A stretch of 64,000 bases of DNA from Merdibacter massiliensis (GTDB lineage Bacteria > Bacillota_I > Bacilli_A > Erysipelotrichales > Erysipelotrichaceae). Where the stretch lies: positions 1 through 64,000 of the forward strand of contig NZ_LT699717.1 in NCBI RefSeq assembly GCF_900155395.1. The letters are read 5' to 3'. The position numbers were made by a program, and so were the translations under genes. Shown one piece after another: positions 11,863-25,598 of the stretch (position 1 is the first letter of the stretch; each line of letters opens with the position of its first letter). The notes under the pieces are model-generated. The model saw only the letters and a program-made list of their open reading frames with translations. It had not been told where the DNA came from and ran no database searches.

Positions 11863-11878
11863 TTGTATGCGCTTGCAA
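11863..11878 (-). promoter_or_regulatory. cre site upstream of glgC
   Basis: The minus strand reads TTGCAAGCGCATACAA, matching all 16 positions of WTGNAARCGNWWWCAW. It is centred about 60 bases upstream of the -10, the position of activating cre sites such as those known upstream of Bacillus ackA. A much weaker match lies at about 11953-11968. Confidence 0.6.
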
Positions 11879-11996: not shown

Positions 11997-13289
11997 CTAT
12001 TTTTTTAATATAGAATTGATATTTTGATCTAAACGGATCAATTCATTTTCGATATCTTGTTGATTATGACAAAGATCATTGATGGTGGAATCCGCATTTT
12101 GCATGATCTGCTCATAATCTTGTGTCGTACGGACACTGCGTCCTTTCTGCATGACGGTATCCAATACATTCATGTCAAATTGACTTGTTCCGGGAATATC
12201 TTGTTGCAGATCCTGATTCACTTGGGGATCTTTCATCACTTTAGGCAAAACAGATACTGCCGGCAATTGCACAGCTGCCTTTTTTTGATAATCCTCATCA
12301 CAGCTTAAATCACACATCAATTCCCAAGCCAGATCTTTTTTGGTGCTATGTGATGACATGGCAACCATCAATGTATCGATAGCTGATACATTGTCCCCAT
12401 TCTCTCCAGATGGAAATGGCAGACATTCCCATTCAAAACCGGAAAATTTTTTTACACGCCATGGGTATGGCATATATGTACGATAGTCGCTATAATTCAT
12501 TGGCTGAAAGGCAACCAGACCTTCATCAAACATCTGCGAGGTCACTTCATTTTGATCACATACGCGGTATATTTCACGTAAATACTGCACCGTTTCGATC
12601 ATGCCTTTCGATGATAGATATACCGTATTCTTCCTTTCATCATAAAACTCCACATTATTCGTATAAGCAGCCTGTTTCCATTGATAGCCGCATATGCCAT
12701 ATTGATCCAGCTGGCCGTCTGCGTTTGTATCTTTTGTCACACCTTTTACGATCTGATAAAAATCATCCCATGTCCATGATTCATCCGGGACATCATAACC
12801 CGCTTCATTCAGCAAAGTCTTATTCACAAACATCAATTCCGGTACGGAAAGATAGGGCAAAGCATACAGAGTATCATTGAACATTGCTGACTGCAAAGAA
12901 GCATCATAATACGCATCTATAGAGAATGATGCATCGGTTTGCGCAAAAGTATCCAGCGGCTGCAGGACTTGATTATTGCATAAAGTAGAAAACAGTTCAC
13001 TTGGCACAAACAGCACATCCGGCAGATCATCATCCAAGATCATTTGCGAGATGCTTTCTTCATACGTATCACGCGGGGTTCCGCTCACATATTGCACATC
13101 TACATTTGGATGCTTTTTCTCAAAGGATGCAAAAGCCTCATCTAACAACTGATAGCTGTCTGCCTCGGGAACATCCCAATTGCTTCCGGCAAAAACAGCA
13201 ACACGTAAAATCGTTTTTGCATGATAAAATGAACAACCGGCAATTACTAACAAACACACAATACCCGACAGCATACATCTACGTTTCAT
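11997..13289 (-). CDS. Sugar ABC-type extracellular binding lipoprotein
   Basis: A 430-residue family-1 solute-binding protein. A lipoprotein signal peptide ends in VIAGC (Cys19), so it is anchored on the outer face of the membrane. The binding fold shows WTWDDFYQIVKGVTKDTNADGQLDQYG, typical of oligosaccharide-binding proteins. Its ATG overlaps the response regulator stop by ATGA. No ABC permease or ATPase accompanies it, so a sensing role with the upstream histidine kinase is more likely than transport. The ligand is unknown. Confidence 0.85.
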   Translation of the reverse strand: MKRRCMLSGIVCLLVIAGCSFYHAKTILRVAVFAGSNWDVPEADSYQLLDEAFASFEKKHPNVDVQYVSGTPRDTYEESISQMILDDDLPDVLFVPSELFSTLCNNQVLQPLDTFAQTDASFSIDAYYDASLQSAMFNDTLYALPYLSVPELMFVNKTLLNEAGYDVPDESWTWDDFYQIVKGVTKDTNADGQLDQYGICGYQWKQAAYTNNVEFYDERKNTVYLSSKGMIETVQYLREIYRVCDQNEVTSQMFDEGLVAFQPMNYSDYRTYMPYPWRVKKFSGFEWECLPFPSGENGDNVSAIDTLMVAMSSHSTKKDLAWELMCDLSCDEDYQKKAAVQLPAVSVLPKVMKDPQVNQDLQQDIPGTSQFDMNVLDTVMQKGRSVRTTQDYEQIMQNADSTINDLCHNQQDIENELIRLDQNINSILKK

Positions 13290-13963
13290 TTTTCATTCAA
13301 CCCCTTATATACGAGACGTTGATTGGAAACTGCCCAAATTGCCAACTGTGTACGGTCTCTTAAAGCTAATTTATCCAGTATCACGCTGATATAATTGCGT
13401 ACGGTTCCTTCTGTAAAAGAAAGTTCGCCAGCAATCTCTTTGTTTGACAAGCCATTGGCCACACTGGCAATGATCTTCCATTCCGTCATTGAAAGATGCT
13501 CGATATCAGCAATGGAAATATCGCTTTCCACTTGGCTTTTCGCCATATCGGAAAACATGCGCATCGCTTTTATTGCCACCTGCGGTTGAATCACACCACC
13601 CCCGCCGGCAACAGTCACAATAGCCTGATACAGTTCTTCTAACGAAACGCCCTTTAACAAATAACTGCTTGCCCCATACTTCAATGCATCATAAATATAC
13701 TCATCATCATCAAACGTCGTTAATACGATGACAGCAATCTGCGGATAATGTTCCTTGATCTGCTTCGTACATTGTACACCATTCATCTGCGGCATTCGAA
13801 TATCCATCAAAATCACATCCGGCTGTTCCTTTGCAACTAACTGCAAAACTTCTTCTCCATCCTTTGCCAAACCGCAGATCTGAATATCATCCTTTGTGCT
13901 GAGAAGAATCTGTAAACTCTCTCTCATCAATTCCTGATCGTCAGCGATCATCACCTTAATCAT
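13286..13963 (-). CDS. NarL/LuxR-family response regulator
   Basis: A 225-residue regulator. Residues 1-120 are a receiver domain with phosphoacceptor Asp54 in VILMDIRMP and Lys near residue 105; residues 150-215 are a LuxR-type helix-turn-helix (LSNKEIAGELSFTEGTVRNYISVILDKL). It overlaps the kinase gene by eight bases and the following lipoprotein gene by four. It is the natural candidate to bind the two palindromes upstream of the PTS operon, though nothing in the sequence proves it. Confidence 0.93.
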   Translation of the reverse strand: MIKVMIADDQELMRESLQILLSTKDDIQICGLAKDGEEVLQLVAKEQPDVILMDIRMPQMNGVQCTKQIKEHYPQIAVIVLTTFDDDEYIYDALKYGASSYLLKGVSLEELYQAIVTVAGGGGVIQPQVAIKAMRMFSDMAKSQVESDISIADIEHLSMTEWKIIASVANGLSNKEIAGELSFTEGTVRNYISVILDKLALRDRTQLAIWAVSNQRLVYKGLNEK

Positions 13964-15278
13964 TGCTTGTCATCTCCTTTCGCAGCGGCAATTCTACCAA
14001 AACCTCAAATCCCTGCTTGCCATAAAAGCGTATATTGCCTTTTAATAATGCGACCCTTTCTTTCATGTGATGCAGGCCAAAACCTTCTTCTACATTGGAA
14101 CAGCCAATCCCATTATCTTCAATGATGATGATCAATGAATCTTCATCTTTTCCAAAAGAAATATAGATCTTATCTGCTTTTCCATGGCGAACACTATTCG
14201 TCATGCTTTCCTGTACGATACGATAAATGGTTTCTTCTTCATCTACCTGGAAGTGCAATGATCTCAGATGACAGACAAAGATAACCTGAACTCCCGTGGA
14301 TTCGACAAACTGATCGATCATTTTTTTCAAAGCTTCGGAAAGAGAATGGTTTTCCAATGCATCCGGCCGCAATTTATTCACGGAACGGCGTACATCTTTC
14401 AATCCCTCTTTAGCGACAATGCTCAACCGATCCAATTGTTTCTGTGCCAAATGCGGATCAGCCTGCAACAATGCCTTTGCTGCTTCCAACCCTGTTGACA
14501 GCCCCGTCAGTGTATGACCTAACGTATCATGAATCTCTCTGGCCAAACGGTTTCGTTCTTTCGTTTCCCCCATCTTTTCCCGCATATCTGCCATTTCTTC
14601 TAATTGTTGATTCAGTTCTTTTAGTTCCCGGTTCATCTTTTGCATCTGTGTGCTCTCCAAGATCTGGTCTTGGATCAAAAAGAGGATATATACCAAAAAA
14701 ATGATCAATACCAATGTGGAAAGCAAAGCAGAAACACTTCTTAAAAAATTAGCTGCCTGTGCAGTATAGGGATACAGATAGCTTTCAAATGAAGTAGTAA
14801 CATAATAATCGCTGATCACATAATAATTTGTACTCAAAAACAAAATGATCAAGATCAATAACGCGATCCCTTTTGTTTTTCTATCTCTTGTCAATGTCAG
14901 CATGTTCGCTGTCACTAACAGAAAAATCTCATTGCTCGTAAAACTGATCAATCGCAATAACCATAAGCACAGCAGGATTTCTAAAAACAAAAACAGAAAC
15001 TCACGCCAACGTGTTTCTCTGACCTTGTTGCGCATTTGCATGACAACTAATAAAACCGGATATAAAATGACCGTCAACCAGAGAATCTGCTTTGCAGGCA
15101 AAGGAATGACCTCGACCTGTCGCAAAAAATCTGCTGCTTGAAATTGTTCTTTTACTAAAGAAACCGTGCAATTAAACAAACAGGCAAAGAAGAATAGCTG
15201 CAAAAAGCAGGCAGCACAAAGCAAAGCATATGTCAATCGTAAACGATAGGCACTGTCTGTGAATAAGCGCAGGTTCAT
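13956..15278 (-). CDS. Membrane sensor histidine kinase (HisKA_3 type)
   Basis: A 440-residue kinase. About six hydrophobic segments fill residues 15-205 with only short outside loops, then comes a coiled coil (about 210-245), the HisKA_3 box REIHDTLGHTLTGLS, and an ATPase domain with ESMTNSVRHG and EDNGIGC. The start is the ATG at 15278, six bases after GGAGGG, and it overlaps the binding-protein stop as ATGA; the ATG at 15284 touches the Shine-Dalgarno. The lack of an extracellular ligand domain fits sensing through the binding proteins encoded on both sides. Confidence 0.92.
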   Translation of the reverse strand: MNLRLFTDSAYRLRLTYALLCAACFLQLFFFACLFNCTVSLVKEQFQAADFLRQVEVIPLPAKQILWLTVILYPVLLVVMQMRNKVRETRWREFLFLFLEILLCLWLLRLISFTSNEIFLLVTANMLTLTRDRKTKGIALLILIILFLSTNYYVISDYYVTTSFESYLYPYTAQAANFLRSVSALLSTLVLIIFLVYILFLIQDQILESTQMQKMNRELKELNQQLEEMADMREKMGETKERNRLAREIHDTLGHTLTGLSTGLEAAKALLQADPHLAQKQLDRLSIVAKEGLKDVRRSVNKLRPDALENHSLSEALKKMIDQFVESTGVQVIFVCHLRSLHFQVDEEETIYRIVQESMTNSVRHGKADKIYISFGKDEDSLIIIIEDNGIGCSNVEEGFGLHHMKERVALLKGNIRFYGKQGFEVLVELPLRKEMTSND

Positions 15279-16249
15279 TGCCATCCCTCCAATAGATAAT
15301 CATCAATATTCTCTTGATCCACCATGCTTACTTCGATTTTTTCTTCTTGCAGATCTTGTTCCCCCGTTTTTAATTGATATGCTGCCTGTATCGCTTTCTG
15401 TGCCATTTTCTTTGGATACTGCGCCACTGTTCCGCTCATATATCCTTCCTTGATCAATACTTTTGCTTCCGGTGCTCCATCTACACCAAGCACCATGACT
15501 TCGTCTTTTCCAATTTGCTGTTCCTGCAATGCTGCCACTGCTCCTAAAGCTGCCGGATCATTCAAAGCCATGATGACATCAAACTGGACTCCCTGATCAA
15601 ACAGATCCTCGATCAAAGGCATGCTTTTCTCCAGCTGTCCTTCACAATCCAATTCCATCAGTACTTGATAATGCGGATCTTGCGCAATTGTATCTTTAAA
15701 ACCTTGTAATCGTTCCACTGCCGAATTAGCTGCTTCATGACTAAGCAGAATGATATTTGCCGATTCTTTTTTTTCCATCATGTACTGTGCACACAACACC
15801 CCGGCACGATAGTTATCCGAAGATACTGTATAATCGATAAAATCCTCCCCATCATAGACATTTGTATCAATTGCAATGATAATGATTCCTTGCTGTTTTG
15901 CTTCTTTCAAAACATCGACCAAACCTCTGGAATCTACAGGATTCACGATCAATACATCAATTTTCTTTTCCATCATCGTATGAATCTGCTCAATTTGTCT
16001 TGCTAATGATAACTGTGGATCCATCGTGATCATCTTATCCCCGTTAGCCTCAATTTGATTGCGCAATTCTTCATCCATCACTTCATAAAACGGATTGTTC
16101 ATCGTCATATAGGTTGCGCCGAACAGCAAAGGATCTTTTTTATCCGAAACCAATGAAGCCTTTGTATAATTCACAAGAAAAACAGTACACAAAAGTGCAC
16201 AGCAAAGTGTTAATAAAAAAATACTGATCTCTAGTTTATGCTTTTTCAT
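15275..16249 (-). CDS. Periplasmic sugar-binding protein (RbsB/LacI-fold)
   Basis: A 324-residue type-I periplasmic binding protein with an N-terminal hydrophobic segment (ISIFLLTLCCALLCTVFLV) that looks like an uncleaved anchor, because no lipobox is evident. The fold is shown by VLIVNPVDSRGLVDVLKEA, IDTNVYDGEDFIDYTVSSDN and MALNDPAALGA. Such proteins bind pentoses, hexoses or autoinducer-2. It is first in the coupled module and has its own promoter. The ATG at 16249 is preferred because GGAG lies at good spacing; the ATG at 16264 is too near the predicted transcript start. No transporter genes adjoin. Confidence 0.88.
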   Translation of the reverse strand: MKKHKLEISIFLLTLCCALLCTVFLVNYTKASLVSDKKDPLLFGATYMTMNNPFYEVMDEELRNQIEANGDKMITMDPQLSLARQIEQIHTMMEKKIDVLIVNPVDSRGLVDVLKEAKQQGIIIIAIDTNVYDGEDFIDYTVSSDNYRAGVLCAQYMMEKKESANIILLSHEAANSAVERLQGFKDTIAQDPHYQVLMELDCEGQLEKSMPLIEDLFDQGVQFDVIMALNDPAALGAVAALQEQQIGKDEVMVLGVDGAPEAKVLIKEGYMSGTVAQYPKKMAQKAIQAAYQLKTGEQDLQEEKIEVSMVDQENIDDYLLEGWQ

Positions 16250-16276
16250 CTTCCTATGCTCCATTTTCCTACGTTT

Positions 16277-16285
16277 ATTATAGCA
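16277..16285 (-). promoter_or_regulatory. Extended -10 promoter of the sensing module
   Basis: TGCTATAAT on the minus strand, immediately after the PTS terminator and about 30 bases before the binding-protein start. Confidence 0.6.
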
Positions 16286-16300
16286 TCATTCTGCAAAATA

Positions 16301-16347
16301 AAAAAAAGTCTTTCATAACTGAGCAGATACTGCCAGTTATAAAAGAC
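16301..16347 (-). terminator. Terminator of the mannose-family PTS operon
   Basis: A 14-bp stem with one G-T pair (16308-16321 with 16334-16347), followed on the minus strand by at least seven T. It makes the downstream sensor module a separate transcription unit. Confidence 0.88.
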
Positions 16348-16355
16348 CATTCTTT

Positions 16356-17186
16356 TTAATAAGTCAATCTTGGATCGAAGAAACCGATCAACACACCTAC
16401 AAAAGCAATGACAACCAATAACAGCATGACTTTCAGCGGCGACATCTTTTTCTTTGAAATCAGATACCAGCAGAAAATCACGAATACTGCAGTCAAACCT
16501 TTTGGAAGAACGGAATTGATCTGATCATTTAAATTCAGGAAAACTTCCCCTGTATCTGGATTTGTCATTTCAAATACTGTTGTAACAGTTACCCATGTAG
16601 CCGCAACAGCACCGATGACCATGCTTCCTAACATCATGATGCTTTCGCGAAGTGCTTTTGATTTTTCACCGGTTAAAAATTCTACAGCTTTTCCACCAAG
16701 TTCATATCCTTTAAAGTATAACAGACGCATACCGATCGTAATGATCAAGTTCCATGCAATGATGTAGAAGATTGCACCAACCGGTGAACCGCCAGTTGAT
16801 AAACCTAATGCAATACCCAGCAATAACGGAATCAATACACCAACGACCAGAGAGTCGCCGATTCCAGCAATCGGTCCCATCAAACCTGCACGCAAACCAT
16901 TGATCGTGTCGCCGTCAACACCTTCATTATTTGCTCGTGCTTCTTCCAGACCAACTGTCACACCAACGATGACAGATCCTAACTGTGGTTCTGTATTGAA
17001 GAATGCTTTATAAGTTTCCAGCGCAGCCGCTTGTTCTTCTTTTGTATCATAGAGATCTTCTACGATCGGCAACATTGCACACAAATAACCAAACGTCTGC
17101 ATATGCTCTTGTGAAAAACAAGTCAAGTGTCCGTAATACCAATTCCAGAAGGATTTATTTAATGCCTTTTTTGATACTTTTTTCAT
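16356..17186 (-). CDS. PTS mannose-family IID component
   Basis: A 276-residue IID membrane subunit. It begins with the amphipathic SFWNWYYGHLTCFSQEHMQTFGY region and continues with GLRAGLMGPIAGIGDSLVVGVLIPLLLGIALGL, typical of the family, with several membrane segments toward the C-terminus. With IIC it forms the sugar channel. The ATG at 17186 lies one base after the IIC stop with GAGGAGG upstream; a longer frame from 17216 would overlap IIC and lacks a good ribosome site. Substrate unknown. Confidence 0.93.
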   Translation of the reverse strand: MKKVSKKALNKSFWNWYYGHLTCFSQEHMQTFGYLCAMLPIVEDLYDTKEEQAAALETYKAFFNTEPQLGSVIVGVTVGLEEARANNEGVDGDTINGLRAGLMGPIAGIGDSLVVGVLIPLLLGIALGLSTGGSPVGAIFYIIAWNLIITIGMRLLYFKGYELGGKAVEFLTGEKSKALRESIMMLGSMVIGAVAATWVTVTTVFEMTNPDTGEVFLNLNDQINSVLPKGLTAVFVIFCWYLISKKKMSPLKVMLLLVVIAFVGVLIGFFDPRLTY

Positions 17187-17187
17187 C

Positions 17188-18033
17188 TTAGATATCCTCC
17201 TCATCATCGTCTTCATCTGCAGTGCTATTGACTGTCGTCTTGCCTAATTGAGCCAATTGAATTTGATAATTGATATAGGCAAACATTGCCGCAATGATCG
17301 TAGTAACGACCAGATTGATGCCCAATGCTGCGGCTAAAGCAAAGCCGACAAAGAAAGGAATGAAATCAGCCGCTTTATTAATGATCTGTTTCAATAAGAT
17401 TGCAATTCCGACGCAAGGCAGCAAGGAACCTACGGTAAAGATCGTCTTCATCGGAATACCATCCATCGGCAATACTTCTTTGATCAAATTGACCATATCT
17501 GCTCCAACCAGACAGATAATGAATGTTGGCAGGAACGAACATACGACGTGAGAGATCCAAGGAAGTCCCATATCTACTAAATATAATTTTTTGAAATTTC
17601 CTTCATCAACAGCTTTCCATCCGATATGCTGCCAGATCAAGTTCATCGTTGCTGTACCATAGAACAATACAGTACCCAATGTACCGACCATAGCACCAAA
17701 TGAAGTAGCTAAACCAATGCCGTCTGCATTGGCAGCATCCATACCATAACTCTTCAATGCTAACATAGCTAACGGAATACCAATATAACTAACTGCACGC
17801 ACATCAGCAGAAACAGTTCCGCCAGGTGTGACCAATGCGATATAAAGCAGCTGCATCGCAGCACCTACCAAAATACCTGTACGTACATCTCCTAAGATCA
17901 ATCCGCAAACCAAGCCGCCAACTAACGGACGCCCTAATGTATAGTTACCAACAGAAGAACCACCCATACCTGGCATACTTGCCAAACAAGCAAACAAGCC
18001 TAATAATGCTGCCTGAAATACATTAATTTCCAT
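17188..18033 (-). CDS. PTS mannose/sorbose-family IIC component
   Basis: A 281-residue polytopic membrane protein. GLFACLASMPGMGGSS followed by the GRPLVGGLVCGLILGD segment is the IIC hallmark. The C-terminus is a short acidic tail (DEDDDEEDI). The ATG at 18033 has AAAGGGG seven bases upstream and is preferred over the ATG at 18039. It works with IID to carry the sugar, which is phosphorylated by IIB. Confidence 0.92.
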   Translation of the reverse strand: MEINVFQAALLGLFACLASMPGMGGSSVGNYTLGRPLVGGLVCGLILGDVRTGILVGAAMQLLYIALVTPGGTVSADVRAVSYIGIPLAMLALKSYGMDAANADGIGLATSFGAMVGTLGTVLFYGTATMNLIWQHIGWKAVDEGNFKKLYLVDMGLPWISHVVCSFLPTFIICLVGADMVNLIKEVLPMDGIPMKTIFTVGSLLPCVGIAILLKQIINKAADFIPFFVGFALAAALGINLVVTTIIAAMFAYINYQIQLAQLGKTTVNSTADEDDDEEDI

Positions 18034-18047
18034 TGTCATTCCCCTTT

Positions 18048-18539
18048 CTAGTAACCAAATTGTCCTTTAAATTTATCCCAGTCACCAATACTTTCATCCG
18101 GGATCAAGCGGAATTCAACTTCATAACCTGCTTGTGCGATTGCTTGCAATGCATCTGCTTCCTCTTGTGTGATCGATTGATTATTTCCTAATTTCACTGA
18201 TCCCGGACGATCATTGCAAGGTCCGATAATAACTTTTTTGATACCGCATTCAAATTTTTGATCTACAAGAATCTTCTTCATATCAATTGGATTCTTTGTG
18301 ATCAAGAAGTATCTGGTATCGGAATCTAATACTTTCTGACACTTTTTCTTCCAATCTTCCATCGTCCAAACAAATGTCTTCTTTCCGCTTGCACTCTTAT
18401 AAGCAGCTTTCAATACGCTATTATTTGCAGCTGCATCATTGACTGCAACGATTCCATCACAAGGATACTCCAATGCCCATCTTGTACATGTTTGACCATG
18501 GATCATACGGTCGTCTACTCGAATAAATGAAACTGACAT
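18048..18539 (-). CDS. PTS mannose/sorbose-family IIB component
   Basis: A 163-residue cytoplasmic IIB protein. The phosphorylated residue is His14 in RVDDRMIHGQT. It takes phosphate from IIA and passes it to the incoming sugar. The length and fold match the sorbose/mannose IIB family. It lies between IIA and IIC, with a strong AGAGGAGGG Shine-Dalgarno. Confidence 0.94.
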   Translation of the reverse strand: MSVSFIRVDDRMIHGQTCTRWALEYPCDGIVAVNDAAANNSVLKAAYKSASGKKTFVWTMEDWKKKCQKVLDSDTRYFLITKNPIDMKKILVDQKFECGIKKVIIGPCNDRPGSVKLGNNQSITQEEADALQAIAQAGYEVEFRLIPDESIGDWDKFKGQFGY

Positions 18540-18557
18540 CTCTATTCCCTCCTCTTA

Positions 18558-18974
18558 TTAAATGTCCTCTTCTTCATCACTAACTAAAGCGAATTCTTTG
18601 ATTGCATCTCCTGCTTCACGCAAGCAGGCTTCTCGGATCATTTCTACCTCTTGTTCTTTCATCATGACCGCATTCAATGCCATTGCTAAGTTCATGCCGC
18701 CGAATACGATCAAAGGTTTTTTTCCTAAGCTGTCCATGCAATTTAAGAAAGTCGTTAATGGAGAACCTCCGATCAAATCAGCTAATACGATCAGTTCGTC
18801 TCCTTCCTGAAATGTTTCCAACATTTCTTTGCAACGAACACTCAATTGATCAACTGCTTCCCCTTTTTCCAATGTGATACAACGAACTTCTTCACAATTG
18901 CCGACAAACATTGACAACGTGTCATACAAACCTCTTGCAAAACCGCCGTGTGATACTAAACATACGTATCTCAT
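18558..18974 (-). CDS. PTS mannose-family IIA component
   Basis: A 138-residue EIIA-Man protein. His9 in VSHGGFARGL is the phosphoacceptor from HPr, and LADLIGGSP near residue 66 is conserved in the family. It is first of the four PTS genes and ends in an acidic tail. The promoter has TATAAT at 19008-19013, and two copies of a long palindrome lie further upstream. No sigma-54 promoter or LevR-type activator was seen. Confidence 0.94.
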   Translation of the reverse strand: MRYVCLVSHGGFARGLYDTLSMFVGNCEEVRCITLEKGEAVDQLSVRCKEMLETFQEGDELIVLADLIGGSPLTTFLNCMDSLGKKPLIVFGGMNLAMALNAVMMKEQEVEMIREACLREAGDAIKEFALVSDEEEDI

Positions 18975-19078: not shown

Positions 19079-19094
19079 CATGACAAATGTCATG
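19079..19094. promoter_or_regulatory. Operator palindrome A upstream of the PTS operon
   Basis: CATGACAAATGTCATG is a perfect palindrome with 7-base arms and an AA centre. It is centred about 85 bases upstream of the predicted PTS transcript start. The regulator is not known. Confidence 0.7.
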
Positions 19095-19155: not shown

Positions 19156-19169
19156 ATGACATTTGTCAT
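19156..19169. promoter_or_regulatory. Operator palindrome B upstream of the PTS operon
   Basis: ATGACATTTGTCAT is the inverted copy of site A. The 17-base string TTCATGACAAATGTCAT is shared exactly between the plus strand at A and the minus strand at B. The centres are 76 bases apart, and B is 87 bases upstream of the divergent HAD gene. Confidence 0.7.
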
Positions 19170-19249: not shown

Positions 19250-20041
19250 ATGCACATTCAATTAGTCATCTTTGATGTAGATGGAACCTTATATGATCTA
19301 AATAAACACTGTATCCCTGCAAGTACCATTCACGCGATCCAACAGATGAAAAAAAAAGGGACGCGTTTTGCCATTGCTACCGGACGTGCCCATTATGGTT
19401 TGGGAAAAGCGCTCAATGATCTGCATGCCGACTATATTATCGCTGATAGCGGCGGAGTGATCGTAGATCAACAACAGAACATTCTCTATCATCAAGACAT
19501 TCCTTATGAACAATGTTGTGCTCTTGTTCAATATGCTCAAGAACATGAAGCTGGTTTGTTGCTAAAATTTCCGAAACATATGTATATCTATCAGCATCCG
19601 GAAAAGATTGATTGGCTGATCGGACAGATGAATTCAGACATCGGCAGAGAACCCTTCATCTTTCATCCGGAACAAGACCGGCATTTCCTAGAATTACCGC
19701 AATGCGCCAGTCTGCATGATGATGAGGACCGCGTCAAAGAATTTGCTAAACATTGTCCCCTCTCTTTCCGTCAATTTTCAAAAAATGGATTTGACATCGC
19801 TCCAAATGGCGTAAACAAAGGGACCGGCATTCGAAAATTATTGGAGATTCTGCATTTACATAAAGAAGATTGCGCATGTTTCGGGGATAATTATAATGAT
19901 ATCGAAATGATGGAATCATGCGGATATCGCATCGCGATGGGCAATGCGATAGAACCAATTAAAGAAATGGCAGATTATGTAACCGCGCCAATTGATGAAG
20001 ACGGCATCCAAAAAGGACTGGCGCACCTGCATCTCATATAA
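19250..20041 (+). CDS. Cof-type HAD hydrolase
   Basis: A 263-residue HAD phosphatase of the Cof subfamily with a C2-type cap. Motif I is FDVDGTLYD (nucleophile Asp9), motif II is ATGRA near residue 43, and motif IV is FGDNYNDIEMM near residue 212; FSKNGFDIAPNGVNKGTGI is the family's lysine motif. Members dephosphorylate sugar phosphates and flavin or PLP precursors. It is divergent from the PTS operon and shares the region with both palindromes, so it may be coregulated. Confidence 0.9.
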   Translation: MHIQLVIFDVDGTLYDLNKHCIPASTIHAIQQMKKKGTRFAIATGRAHYGLGKALNDLHADYIIADSGGVIVDQQQNILYHQDIPYEQCCALVQYAQEHEAGLLLKFPKHMYIYQHPEKIDWLIGQMNSDIGREPFIFHPEQDRHFLELPQCASLHDDEDRVKEFAKHCPLSFRQFSKNGFDIAPNGVNKGTGIRKLLEILHLHKEDCACFGDNYNDIEMMESCGYRIAMGNAIEPIKEMADYVTAPIDEDGIQKGLAHLHLI

Positions 20042-20229: not shown

Positions 20230-21150
20230 CTATGCTCTTTCTGCGCTCCATTCAATGATAGCACCATTTGCGCCATTGATCTCAAATTCATATTCCATGC
20301 CCTGGTAATGGATCTCTCCTTCATAGATGACCATACCATCATCATAATCTTGTTCAATTTGAATATTGGAGCTGGTAGCACCGCTCACTTTTGCTAAAGC
20401 AATCGACTTTGCTTTTTCTAAAGAAATGGAAGCACTTGTACTGTTATTCGTATTTTGTGAAGGTTCCCAGTTTTCAATATCATAATCTTTTGCCAGAATA
20501 GCACCATTGCTCTTTGCAATTTCATAATCATATTCTGTCTGATTTGCATAAAATTCTACTTCGTAAACTGCCTGTCCTTTTTCATAATCTTCTTTTACCT
20601 GGATAAATTTTGCACTAGAAGCACTAACACCTGCGTCCTGCAATGCAATTGTCTGTGCTTGTTGTCTAGTAATGGTAGATGCAGCTGATTGTGTTTGCTG
20701 TTTGGCTGTCTGCTTTTGAGCAGATGAAGATGAAGCTGTATTATTCTGTGTTGTCTGCTTTTGCGTGGAAGAAGAGCTGCTTGCTGTATTTTGCTTAGAA
20801 GTACTTTGTGTTGTTTTTACTGTTTCCTTTTCATGTTTGACAACTGTACCGCTTTGTTCATCGATCTCGTAATCATAGTGTGTATTATTTGCATTAAATT
20901 CTACATCGATCACAGAACGCCCGTCATCCAGATCATTTTTAATTATTAGATTGCTTACTTCGCTTTCTTGTACGCCGGCATGCTGCAAAGCAGCTGCTTT
21001 TGCTTCTTCTTGCGTAATGGCATTGGTATTATTTGTTGTTTGTGAAGCATTTGCCATCATCGGTGATGAAGGGTTTGCATATGCGCCGCATCCTGCCAAT
21101 ACAGTGATCAAACCTGCTGTTGCCGTTAGTTTCAATAAGTTCTTTTTCAT
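20230..21150 (-). CDS. Lipoprotein with three PepSY-like domains
   Basis: A 306-residue lipoprotein. The signal peptide ends in VLAGC. Three similar PepSY-type repeats follow (about residues 45-115, 170-235 and 240-303), each with an ITxEEAxxxAL helix and a YDYEI-like strand. A long Ser/Thr/Gln linker (about 118-165) separates the first from the other two. PepSY domains are linked to protease inhibition or binding outside the cell. The start is the ATG at 21150 behind GGAGGAATAT, and the IS110-family element lies immediately upstream of that Shine-Dalgarno. Confidence 0.85.
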   Translation of the reverse strand: MKKNLLKLTATAGLITVLAGCGAYANPSSPMMANASQTTNNTNAITQEEAKAAALQHAGVQESEVSNLIIKNDLDDGRSVIDVEFNANNTHYDYEIDEQSGTVVKHEKETVKTTQSTSKQNTASSSSSTQKQTTQNNTASSSSAQKQTAKQQTQSAASTITRQQAQTIALQDAGVSASSAKFIQVKEDYEKGQAVYEVEFYANQTEYDYEIAKSNGAILAKDYDIENWEPSQNTNNSTSASISLEKAKSIALAKVSGATSSNIQIEQDYDDGMVIYEGEIHYQGMEYEFEINGANGAIIEWSAERA

Positions 21151-21153
21151 ATA

Positions 21154-21160
21154 TTCCTCC
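21154..21160. repeat. Left flank TTCCTCC of IS copy 1
   Basis: TTCCTCC here is repeated at the right boundary (22776-22782). On the minus strand it is the Shine-Dalgarno GGAGGAA of the PepSY lipoprotein gene. Confidence 0.6.
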
Positions 21161-21243
21161 ATTTCCCCGCGCCTAAGGTCGCGCGGACACAAATATTTCA
21201 TCAATAAATCTCACACGTCTCATTTTTTCGTGTTACCATATAA

Positions 21244-21427
21244 GAGAGGTGGTACACTACAGAGCACGTGGAGGTGAGTAGGAATTCTACTCAATTGAAT
21301 ATCCTGTATATATATAAGTTGCCGTCATCATCTCAAGCACAAATAAGTAGGACTTTGAGCCTGGACACTTATGATTGTTCAATCAACTGTTGTCGATTCG
21401 CTTTGATGACAGTCAATGCCACCTCTC
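21244..21427 (+). ncRNA. Candidate bridge RNA of IS copy 1
   Basis: A 184-nt region upstream of the transposase enclosed by a perfect 9-bp stem (21244-21252 with 21419-21427). Inside are a 7-bp hairpin TGAGTAG/CTACTCA (21275-21293), a 7-bp stem GTCATCA/TGATGAC (21324-21330 with 21404-21410) and a nested stem ATAAGT/ACTTAT (21343-21348 with 21367-21372). It differs from copy 2 at only about four positions. The placement and two-loop design fit the bridge RNAs described for IS110-family elements. Exact ends are not known. Confidence 0.65.
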
Positions 21428-21451
21428 CTTTTGCATGAAAGGAGTTTTTTT

Positions 21452-22708
21452 ATGGTAATGAAAATCGTTCGTTTCAACTGTTGTGGCATGGATGTTCACA
21501 AAAACCTGGTTGTCGCTACTATTGGGATCACCGATAGAAAGACCAACATTACAGAATACTTCCAACGATCCTTCTCCACTTTAAACTCCGACCTATACCG
21601 TTTAAAGGATTGGCTGCGATCTCATCACTGTTCTGATGTCTGTATGGAGTCTACCGGTAAATACTGGATCCCGATCTTTAACATTCTTGAAGATGAGACC
21701 AATGTCCATTTAACTCACCCCAAGTATGTCAAAGCCATCAAAGGCAAGAAGACAGATAAGAAAGATTCCAAATGGATCTGTGATCTCTTCAAACATGATC
21801 TGATCAAGTTTTCGTTTATCCCTCCCAAAGAAATTCGGGAGATGCGTGAGATCGCACGTTACAGATACAAACTGGTCTGCATGCGTTCTTCAGAACGGAA
21901 TCGTTATCAAAACTGTATGACCATTTCTAATGTCGGTCTGGCTTCTGTTGTTTCAGATCCTTTTGGCAAGACGGCTTCCAACATTATGAAAGAAGTCATG
22001 AAATCCAATGTGATCGATGATGACAAGATCCTAAAGCTCGTTCACAAAAACTGTAAGAACAAAGATAAGATACTGGACTCTCTTCATGGCTATCACATTG
22101 AATCGGATCAACGATTCAAGATGGAAAAATCTTTGGATCATATGGAATATTTAGATCAGCTCATTGATTCATGCGAAGTGGAATTGATTAAGCGTGCGTA
22201 TCCTTTTCGCAGATCTTTTCAGCACATCACACAAATAAAAGGAATCAGTGCTTTATCTGCTATTCTTATCATCTCTGAAATAGGAATTGATATGTCTCAG
22301 TTCGAATCCGACAAACAGCTTGTCAGTTGGGCCGGACTTTCTCCTGCCAACAACGAGAGTGCCGGCAAGAAAAAGTCAGTCCGTATCTCAAAAGCTGGAC
22401 AGTATCTCAAACCTCTGCTTGTCCAATGTGCTTTATCGGCCATCAAAGATAAGACATCTTATTTTGGAAGAAAGTATTCCAATATCAAGAAACGACGAGG
22501 TCATAAGAAAGCAATCATTGCGATCGCACGCATGATGCTGGTCAGCATCTACCACATGATCCTTACAGGAGAAGAATTTAATCCATGTGACCATGAATCC
22601 TTTATGGATCCAAAACCAAACGCCAATCCTTCACTTACAGTTGAAAAAGCATTGAACTTTTTAAAACAATCTGGCATTGATATTTCTTCTATTCCAGTCA
22701 ACTTATAA
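21452..22708 (+). CDS. IS110-family DEDD transposase, copy 1
   Basis: A 418-residue recombinase with an N-terminal DEDD (RuvC-like) domain, acidic residues in CGMDVHK, CMESTGKYW and KTDKKDSKW, and a C-terminal Transposase_20 domain with SWAGLSPANNESAGKKK, whose serine is the likely catalytic residue. The ATG at 21452 follows AAAGGAG. It differs from copy 2 at about 40 residues, so the copies are not recent duplicates. No frameshift or stop is visible, so it is probably active. Confidence 0.95.
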   Translation: MVMKIVRFNCCGMDVHKNLVVATIGITDRKTNITEYFQRSFSTLNSDLYRLKDWLRSHHCSDVCMESTGKYWIPIFNILEDETNVHLTHPKYVKAIKGKKTDKKDSKWICDLFKHDLIKFSFIPPKEIREMREIARYRYKLVCMRSSERNRYQNCMTISNVGLASVVSDPFGKTASNIMKEVMKSNVIDDDKILKLVHKNCKNKDKILDSLHGYHIESDQRFKMEKSLDHMEYLDQLIDSCEVELIKRAYPFRRSFQHITQIKGISALSAILIISEIGIDMSQFESDKQLVSWAGLSPANNESAGKKKSVRISKAGQYLKPLLVQCALSAIKDKTSYFGRKYSNIKKRRGHKKAIIAIARMMLVSIYHMILTGEEFNPCDHESFMDPKPNANPSLTVEKALNFLKQSGIDISSIPVNL

Positions 22709-22850: not shown

Positions 22851-22878
22851 AAAAAATAAAAAGGCACCAGCTGGCGCC
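22851..22878 (-). terminator. Terminator of the trpXYZ-like operon
   Basis: Stem GGCGCCA/TGGTGCC (7 bp with a wobble, 22863-22869 with 22872-22878) followed on the minus strand by a T-rich run. It overlaps the stop codon of the ATPase gene. Confidence 0.8.
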
Positions 22879-23633
22879 TATACCAAGTCATACAATTCTA
22901 ATAATTGTGCAGGACTTGTCTGCTGTTTTTCTTTTTGATCAAGCTGTGCAACGATGTGTCCCTCGTTCATGATGATCGTACGATTTCCATATTCGAAAGA
23001 TTGACGAAGATTATGGGTGATCATGATCGTAGTGATATGATGCTCCTGAATAATTTTTTCTGTCAGATCCATAACGATCGCTGCCGTTTTGGGATCTAAG
23101 GCAGCAGTGTGCTCATCTAACAATAATAATTTGGGAGGAACGATCGTTGCCATCAACAGAGCCAGCGCCTGACGCTGACCTCCAGACAACAATCCCACAG
23201 GCTGCTGCATACGATCTTCCAAGCCAAGCCCTAAGCGCATCAATTGTTCGCGGAAATATTGATAATCGCTTTTTCGTATAGCCTTGCACAATCCTTTTCT
23301 TTTTCCTCTGCTGTACGCTAAGCCAAGATTTTCAACGATACTCATATCTGGTGCAGTTCCCCGCATTGGATCTTGAAATAAACGGCCGATATAGCGGCTG
23401 CGCATATACTCTGGTTGCTTGCTGAGGTCCATGCCATCTAACAGGATACAGCCTTCATCCATCATCAAAGATCCGCTGATCACATTCAACAGTGTGCTTT
23501 TCCCTGCTCCATTACTGCCTAATACACAGACGAAATCCCCGGCATCCAGGTGCAGAGAGACATGATCCAATGCTTTTCGTTCATTGACCGTATTTGGATA
23601 AAAAGTAATACTGGCATCTTTTAGATCTAACAT
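22878..23633 (-). CDS. ABC transporter ATPase (TrpZ-like)
   Basis: A 251-residue ATPase with Walker A GSNGAGKSTLL, signature LLSGGQRQALALLMA and Walker B LLLLDEHTAALD. It belongs to the ABC group that pairs with PF04392-type binding proteins. The stop of the permease gene is two bases upstream. In streptococci the equivalent three-gene transporter is associated with tryptophan uptake, and the UGG T-box ahead of this operon supports the same substrate. Confidence 0.9.
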   Translation of the reverse strand: MLDLKDASITFYPNTVNERKALDHVSLHLDAGDFVCVLGSNGAGKSTLLNVISGSLMMDEGCILLDGMDLSKQPEYMRSRYIGRLFQDPMRGTAPDMSIVENLGLAYSRGKRKGLCKAIRKSDYQYFREQLMRLGLGLEDRMQQPVGLLSGGQRQALALLMATIVPPKLLLLDEHTAALDPKTAAIVMDLTEKIIQEHHITTIMITHNLRQSFEYGNRTIIMNEGHIVAQLDQKEKQQTSPAQLLELYDLV

Positions 23634-23634
23634 A

Positions 23635-24498
23635 TCATTTCCTCCGTTTCTTTAAATAAGGCAGTGAAATGGCGATGGCAACTAATGCTGCACTAAATAA
23701 ATTCAGATCACTGGCACTCATACCGAATTGCAAAGCAAACGTTAATAAAAAACGATAGATCAAAGAACCGGCAATGACGCTGAACAAACCGCGGACGATC
23801 GTCTTATGTCCAAAGAACGCTTCTCCGACAATGATAGAAGCTAATCCCAATACCATCTTTCCTGTAGAACTGCTGACATCCGCAAAAGATTGATACTGTA
23901 CCAAGATTGCCCCAGATAAAGCAATGATTCCATTTGCCAACGCTAAGCCTAAGAGTTTCATATGGTCGGCATTGATACTGGAAGCTTTCACCATCGATTC
24001 ATTGCTGCCCGTAGCACGCATGCTCAACCCTAATTGGGTATTTAGGAATAGATAAACCAAAATGGTTAAGATCAGCAAAGCAAAACAGATAACAACTAAA
24101 TCACCTATATCTTTTCCAAATATGGATTGTGCTTGTGTGAAAATCGTTTCAAAACCAAACAAGGAAATATTAGGTTTTCCTCCTTGGATACGGAGATTGA
24201 CAGAATACAGTGCAGTCATTGTCAGGATACCGGCAAGGATCGGTTGAATGTGCAGTTTCGTCATCAAGATCCCTGTAACGATGCCGCAGCAGGCACCGCA
24301 CAAAAATGCTGCTAATAAACCTAGATAAGGGTGGAAGGCAACACTGCAAACAGCAGCTGCTGCACAACCGCAAGTAAAGCTACCATCAATCGTTAAATCT
24401 GGTATGTTCAGGACGCGAAAGGATAAATAAACGCCCAATCCCATTATTGCATAGATCAGCCCTAATTCAACTGCGCCGATCATCACCGATATACTCAT
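23635..24498 (-). CDS. ABC transporter permease (TrpY-like)
   Basis: A 287-residue inner-membrane permease of the branched-chain-amino-acid type (BPD_transp_2), with about eight hydrophobic segments and the early SFRVLNIPDLTIDGSFTCG motif typical of the TrpY/YvrN-like group. It lies six bases after the binding-protein gene and two before the ATPase gene, forming a single operon. Confidence 0.9.
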   Translation of the reverse strand: MSISVMIGAVELGLIYAIMGLGVYLSFRVLNIPDLTIDGSFTCGCAAAAVCSVAFHPYLGLLAAFLCGACCGIVTGILMTKLHIQPILAGILTMTALYSVNLRIQGGKPNISLFGFETIFTQAQSIFGKDIGDLVVICFALLILTILVYLFLNTQLGLSMRATGSNESMVKASSINADHMKLLGLALANGIIALSGAILVQYQSFADVSSSTGKMVLGLASIIVGEAFFGHKTIVRGLFSVIAGSLIYRFLLTFALQFGMSASDLNLFSAALVAIAISLPYLKKRRK

Positions 24499-24504
24499 AA
24501 ACTA

Positions 24505-25494
24505 TCACTCCGTTTTCATCATCACTAATTTTTCATTTTCGGCAATCGAATCTGGCAAGGTAATCCCTAATGCCTGCATAGTGGACTCATTTACATAAAT
24601 GCTCAGATCCGTTTTAAACTGTTTTACCGGAATATCCGCTGTCGCAGTTCCCTTTAACACTTGATCGACCATGCGTGCTGTTTCTCTGCCTAAATCTTCA
24701 TAATCGATGCCGACTGTTAAAAAGCCGCCGTCATTGACCATAGAATCTGCTCCGACATAATACGGTATCTGATGTTCAATTGCACTTTGTGCACCAGCGC
24801 TCATGGCAGATGCGACCGTGTTATCATTTGGTGAAAAGATGGCATCGCAAGATGCGGACAGTGTGGTGACTGCTTGCTGTACATCATTTGTACTTGTCAC
24901 TGTTACTTCCTGCATTTCAATATCATGTTCTTCACAGAATGCCTTTGCTTTTTCGATGTTCGTTACAGAATTTGCCTCACTTGCATTATAAATGACACCT
25001 AAGCGTTTCAGATCCGGGTCAACTTCTAAAGCTGTTGCCAAAATCTGATCGACCTGTACATCATCCATTGTTCCGGTGATATTTTTATCCGGCTTTTCCA
25101 GTGTCGTGGTCAAACCGGCTCCGATAGGATCGGACACCGCTGCAAAGACTACTGGAATATCCTGTGCATATTTTGCAGCAGCCTGTGCTGTTGGTGTCGC
25201 AATGGCCATAATAACATCGGTTCCATCACCCGATACAGTAGATAAGATGCTGTTTAGTGTTGAAGTATCATTGCCGGCATCATAATATTCGATTTCTATA
25301 TTTTCACCATCTGTATATCCTAATTCTTTCAACTCATCCGTAAAACTATCGCGGATCGTATTCAAAGAAGAATGGGATACGATCTGTACCACGCTTATCT
25401 TCTTGATTTCCTTATCTCCATTTGCCGCTGTACATCCACACAGCATGCCTAACGTTGCTAATGCTGCAATCATAATTTTGTTCATTCGTCTCAT
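24505..25494 (-). CDS. ABC transporter substrate-binding lipoprotein (TrpX-like)
   Basis: A 329-residue lipoprotein (lipobox GMLCGC) of the PF04392 ABC substrate-binding family. KISVVQIVSHSSLNTIRDSFTDEL and AIATPTAQAA are typical. The ATG at 25494 has AAGGAG eight bases upstream; the longer frame to 25560 lacks a ribosome site and runs into the leader. The T-box with a UGG specifier points to tryptophan or a precursor as ligand. Confidence 0.9.
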   Translation of the reverse strand: MRRMNKIMIAALATLGMLCGCTAANGDKEIKKISVVQIVSHSSLNTIRDSFTDELKELGYTDGENIEIEYYDAGNDTSTLNSILSTVSGDGTDVIMAIATPTAQAAAKYAQDIPVVFAAVSDPIGAGLTTTLEKPDKNITGTMDDVQVDQILATALEVDPDLKRLGVIYNASEANSVTNIEKAKAFCEEHDIEMQEVTVTSTNDVQQAVTTLSASCDAIFSPNDNTVASAMSAGAQSAIEHQIPYYVGADSMVNDGGFLTVGIDYEDLGRETARMVDQVLKGTATADIPVKQFKTDLSIYVNESTMQALGITLPDSIAENEKLVMMKTE

Positions 25495-25598
25495 ATTCTT
25501 TTCTCCTTTTTTTCTTTCCTTTATCAATACACTTTCGCAGACAGCATTTCTGCCAAGCATGCATGGAATTTACCATGCGACCAACCCCTTTCATTTAT

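Follow-up and report, generated by a model that had tools for sequence, protein, structure and literature searches.

The DNA analyzed here (64,000 nucleotides, hereafter the window) carries on its minus strand a quartet of overlapping genes coding for an RbsB-like substrate-binding protein (SBP), a HisKA_3 histidine kinase, a NarL-type response regulator, and a family-1 SBP. The families of these proteins and of their neighbors were assigned with Pfam and NCBIfam. The first gene (15275..16264) encodes a LevT-like RbsB-type SBP of 329 aa (Peripla_BP_4, PF13407, E=7.7e-50). It is followed by a LevS-like histidine kinase of 440 aa (13956..15278), with HisKA_3 and HATPase_c domains and His250 assigned by Pfam, alignment, and a structure model, then by a LevR-like NarL-family response regulator of 225 aa (13286..13963; Response_reg and GerE), and finally by a LevQ-like family-1 binding lipoprotein of 430 aa (11997..13289; SBP_bac_1, PF01547, E=2.9e-24). 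The three successive overlaps are 4, 8, and 4 bases long. The junction between the first SBP and the kinase is an ATGA overlap if the kinase starts at the ATG that gives 440 aa (an in-frame ATG at 15284, six bases upstream, would give 442 aa), the kinase and the regulator share 8 bases, and the regulator meets the LevQ-like SBP in a second ATGA overlap. A sequence-only reading of this DNA had claimed such a quartet with these overlaps, and the ORFs and Pfam matches bear out all four genes and their families.

Upstream of the quartet and on the same strand lies an operon for a phosphotransferase system (PTS) of the mannose/fructose/sorbose family, EIIA-EIIB-EIIC-EIID (16356..18974; Pfam and NCBIfam), which is the probable target of the module; its components match NCBIfam mannose/galactosamine models with scores below the cut-offs. 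Between EIID and the four-gene unit we read from the sequence a terminator-like hairpin with a T run on the minus strand (approximately 16295..16345), a feature absent from the automatic scan list. An automatic promoter scan gave counts no better than those of shuffles. On the other side of the PTS operon, and divergent from it, is a HAD-family hydrolase gene (19250..20041, plus strand; Hydrolase_3), which has the operator region described below in common with the operon; in one relative (L076), a 265-aa ORF occupies the equivalent divergent place.

Kinase and binding proteins

Hydropathy and an AlphaFold2 model built from 15 homologues (mean pLDDT 80.5) agree on six membrane helices in the kinase. 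These are residues 9-45, 62-85, 90-110, 118-129, and 133-149, plus a long helix that starts at 173 and continues into the kinase region. Besides short turns, only residues of about 46-61 and 150-172 lie outside, i.e., segments of some 16 and 23 residues. The earlier point that this kinase has no outside sensor domain is therefore sound, and we likewise agree with the view that sensing is done by the binding proteins of a sensory module.

The LevT-like SBP has an N-terminal membrane anchor, seen by hydropathy as a hydrophobic segment at 13-31. The LevQ-like SBP of the window instead carries a lipobox (LVIAGC) and looks like a lipoprotein rather than a transmembrane-anchored protein; a lipobox-like motif is present in the LevQ-like protein of eight of 67 relatives and absent from the remainder. 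When the LevT-like protein is aligned to E. coli RbsB, the positions matching the ribose-binding pocket, N56, N57, F/Y59, Y/F60, D133, N235, D262, and Q282, are conserved in 66 relatives, and those matching R90 and R141 are altered. Because the former are kept and the latter changed, the protein fits with retained monosaccharide binding and a preference other than ribose. For the LevQ-like SBP, the nearest solved structure is the arabino-oligosaccharide-binding protein 6rjy (E=6e-29).

Conservation of the module and the question of transport

When 295 genomes of the order were searched for the kinase, about 69 of the full-length type came up, and we compared their surroundings; further loci came from named genomes (uncultured Erysipelotrichaceae, Traorella, Floccifex porci, and several Lachnospiraceae). 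Among the 67 loci whose kinase is full-length, ORF calling recovered the SBP-kinase-regulator-SBP order in 63; the other four consist of two ORF-calling misses, in which tblastn places the regulator correctly, and two contig ends. A genome search for the four-gene order had been proposed earlier, and the order held in all 67 loci, contig ends aside. This arrangement is not due to chance, because it is the same in every relative examined. In one locus (L047) two ORFs take the place of a single LevT-like gene, the module being otherwise intact; this is a frameshift or a sequencing error. Class-level relatives of the kinase (L133-L139, below 230 bits) turned out to be ordinary two-component pairs without SBPs, and no full-length relative was found in the plasmid collection.

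Of the 67 loci, 51 have genes of a mannose-family PTS no more than 7.5 kb from the module; these stand downstream in 45 loci and upstream in six, including the window. Seven loci have short flanks, and nine have good flanks with no PTS in that range (L037, L063, L079, L080, L084, L086, L087, L092, and L101). The four proteins co-diverge, with pairwise-distance correlations of r 0.80-0.87 as against about 0.5 with EIIC; these values contain shared descent and are no proof of contact. Sensing of the LevQRST type, mostly studied in oral streptococci, thus occurs as an invariant set of four genes among many Erysipelotrichales and some Lachnospiraceae.

Since the two SBPs belong to families of ABC transport (CUT2 and CUT1), they might be ordinary transport proteins served by permeases encoded elsewhere, with the kinase-regulator pair as an unrelated neighbor. 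Finding such cognate permeases had been named as the check that would refute a sensory role, and we ran it on the genome (99.85% complete): screening the PF02653 and PF00528 families identified no CUT1 or CUT2 sugar permease, and none cognate to either SBP. The three PF02653 permeases are two of the branched-chain amino-acid type (L072) and one in the window, at 23689-24465. The 13 of PF00528 belong, judging by eye from neighbor genes, to oligopeptide, phosphate, polyamine-type, methionine, amino-acid, and similar systems, and the sole other SBP_bac_1 protein of the genome adjoins polyamine-type permeases. The sequence-only reading had stated that no ABC permease or ATPase is nearby. This holds in that there is no cognate transporter, but an ABC transporter with its own SBP lies about 6.6 kb away (22878-25560: ATPase, the PF02653-matching permease, and a probable SBP, the ORFs other than the permease being named by eye). 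A transposase-like ORF (21416-22708) and other genes separate it from the module, and nothing marks it as sugar-specific. With permease matches of no identifiable sugar type, a gene order fixed in 67 loci, and SBPs that co-diverge with the kinase, we rejected a transport role for both SBPs and regard the ordinary-transport explanation as extremely improbable. Also between the module and this ABC operon, at 20230-21204, is a gene for a probable lipoprotein with three PepSY domains (Pfam) between low-complexity linkers.

A candidate operator before the PTS operon

A palindrome recurs upstream of EIIA in the loci of relatives, ATGACAWWTGTCAT. Exactly two perfect copies exist in the 2.47-Mb genome, both inside the 275-bp gap before EIIA. 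The proximal copy, ATGACAAATGTCAT (19080..19093), is separated from the start codon of EIIA by about 105 bp and is conserved before EIIA in relatives; the distal one, ATGACATTTGTCAT (19156..19169), lies 76 bp further upstream. The spacing of two sites is similar in two relatives, at 74 bp (L075) and 75 bp (L076). Two others (L067 and L062) have two exact core palindromes before EIIA that are 31 bp apart, as opposed to 74-76 bp. By eye, partial TGACA half-sites run from the palindrome toward EIIA in steps of about 21 bp.

The core, TGACAWWTGTCA, is found twice in the window as against 0.04 times expected from shuffles. In 68 related loci (1.14 Mb) it has 70 sites, 40 of them before EIIA and 21 before the first lev gene, i.e., 61 of 70 before EIIA or the lev operon, spanning two bacterial classes. 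Among the 295 genomes of the order, the exact site is present in 47 of 68 that bear the kinase (21 lack it) and in 35 of 227 that do not (Fisher P=1.3e-16, a value that overstates independence because the genomes share ancestry). That the sites precede the same pair of genes in two classes is an argument free of that problem. A reversed control pattern is rare, occurring in four genomes with the kinase and six without. Five one-mismatch copies elsewhere in the genome were rejected as targets, as the reversed control pattern already yields two.

We consider ATGACAWWTGTCAT a well-supported candidate LevR operator; our literature search found no published LevR site sequence, and this candidate is what the present analysis adds to the known system. 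It also backs the earlier suggestion of the neighboring PTS as the likely target, which we judge correct. The palindrome might instead be bound by another regulator, the lev module using a different site, and its presence in the 35 kinase-negative genomes speaks for this; such copies (for example in G044, G061, G162, and G204, with two of the genomes belonging to the genus of the window) may reflect incomplete assemblies or another regulator's site. Given that the palindrome nevertheless tracks the kinase and that, across two classes, most sites at lev loci stand ahead of EIIA or of the lev operon, we find this unlikely. Still less do we favor a module that senses sugar but has its main targets elsewhere, with the PTS as a mere neighbor. 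The nine PTS-less relatives with good flanks would agree with it, as would the additional activation of the fruA operon by S. mutans LevR (PMC3043104), but the only exact operators of this genome precede the PTS operon, which makes it very unlikely.

If the candidate is indeed the LevR operator, it is precise enough for the regulon to be predicted in each genome separately. In the window, no exact copy was found before the module itself; the module could be expressed by transcription reading through the hairpin near 16295-16345 or from its own promoter.

Relation to LevQRST and proposed signaling

The LevQRST system of Streptococcus mutans was described in 2006 (Mol Microbiol 2006 62:187) and dissected in 2011 (PMC3043104). 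Its operon, levT-levS-levR-levQ, stands directly ahead of levDEFG, which encodes the fructose/mannose PTS, with no ABC transporter nearby; LevQ and LevT are outward-facing and membrane-associated, and little of LevS is exposed (PMC3043104). PTS transcription is abolished without LevQ and strongly reduced without LevT, point mutations in LevQ alter sugar specificity, and LevS signals independently of inducer when insertions are placed close to its fourth and fifth membrane helices (PMC3043104). LevR is of the NarL type (PMC3353171), and the purified protein binds the levD and fruA promoters (PMC3043104). The sequence-only reading had called a version with two SBPs unfamiliar, which was wrong: LevQRST has exactly two, and the genetics require both (PMC3043104). 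Similar operons are reported from S. gordonii, S. sanguinis, two lactobacilli, Clostridium acetobutylicum, and Dorea longicatena (PMC3043104). A sensor with two SBPs is hence already known as a kind, and the module of the window is, by its architecture, another LevQRST-type member.

The two systems have in common the gene order, the NarL regulator, an adjoining mannose-family PTS, the lack of an ABC transporter, and a little-exposed kinase. They differ in that the PTS operon is upstream of the module here and downstream in S. mutans, and in the LevQ-like member of the membrane-held SBPs, which has a lipobox here instead of a transmembrane anchor; the LevT-like one does have a transmembrane segment. 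Exact operators occur only at the PTS operon here, which predicts no fruA-like second target, unlike in S. mutans. Homology to the S. mutans system is suggested by the architecture, the families of the domains, and the homologous operons listed in the literature. Overall, we put the probability that the window encodes a LevQRST-type four-component signaling system at roughly 90%.

Other systems are comparable in part. In C. acetobutylicum, CAC1453-CAC1456 is also a four-gene unit, its first gene annotated as ribose-binding and its second as a histidine kinase; it has a LevQ-labelled member (SEED), and both annotation and expression data connect it with fructose utilization (PMC3507653). In CuaDSR of Ruminiclostridium cellulolyticum, as proposed here, an SBP binds the kinase, and kinase and regulator control sugar uptake, but a single SBP is involved, the kinase possesses an extracellular domain, and the target is an ABC transporter (PMC10384115). 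A three-component system of the XylFII-LytS type was ruled out by the two SBPs, the HisKA_3 kinase, and the PTS neighbor. In XylFII-LytS and AraPST, one sugar SBP feeds the kinase, the targets are ABC transporters, and kinase and regulator come from families other than those of the module.

From the families, anchors, and pocket that we observe, the two SBPs would be held at the outer face of the membrane and probably bind an extracellular sugar there. As the kinase exposes hardly any sensor domain on the outside, they would hand their state to its membrane helices, as the S. mutans genetics suggest. The domains point to phosphorylation of the NarL-type regulator by the kinase, and the conserved sites to binding of the regulator to the palindromes before the PTS operon, which it would activate; the sugar would then enter through the PTS and not an ABC transporter. 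Our best guess for the inducer is a PTS hexose, e.g., fructose or mannose. By analogy with S. mutans, whose genetics favor such a division, LevQ may be the main specificity determinant and LevT a modulator. It is rather doubtful that the two SBPs bind different sugars and that the kinase reports their combination or ratio, gating the PTS operon via palindromes 74-76 bp apart. The pocket residues kept in 66 relatives offer a concrete entry point to why one kinase needs two SBPs of unrelated fold.

The module is followed by glycogen-synthesis genes, unlike S. mutans LevQRST. A catabolite-response-element-like site, TTGCAAGCGCATACAA (11863-11878, minus strand), lies just before glgC, which suggests that the glycogen operon (11777-8081) may be under CcpA control.
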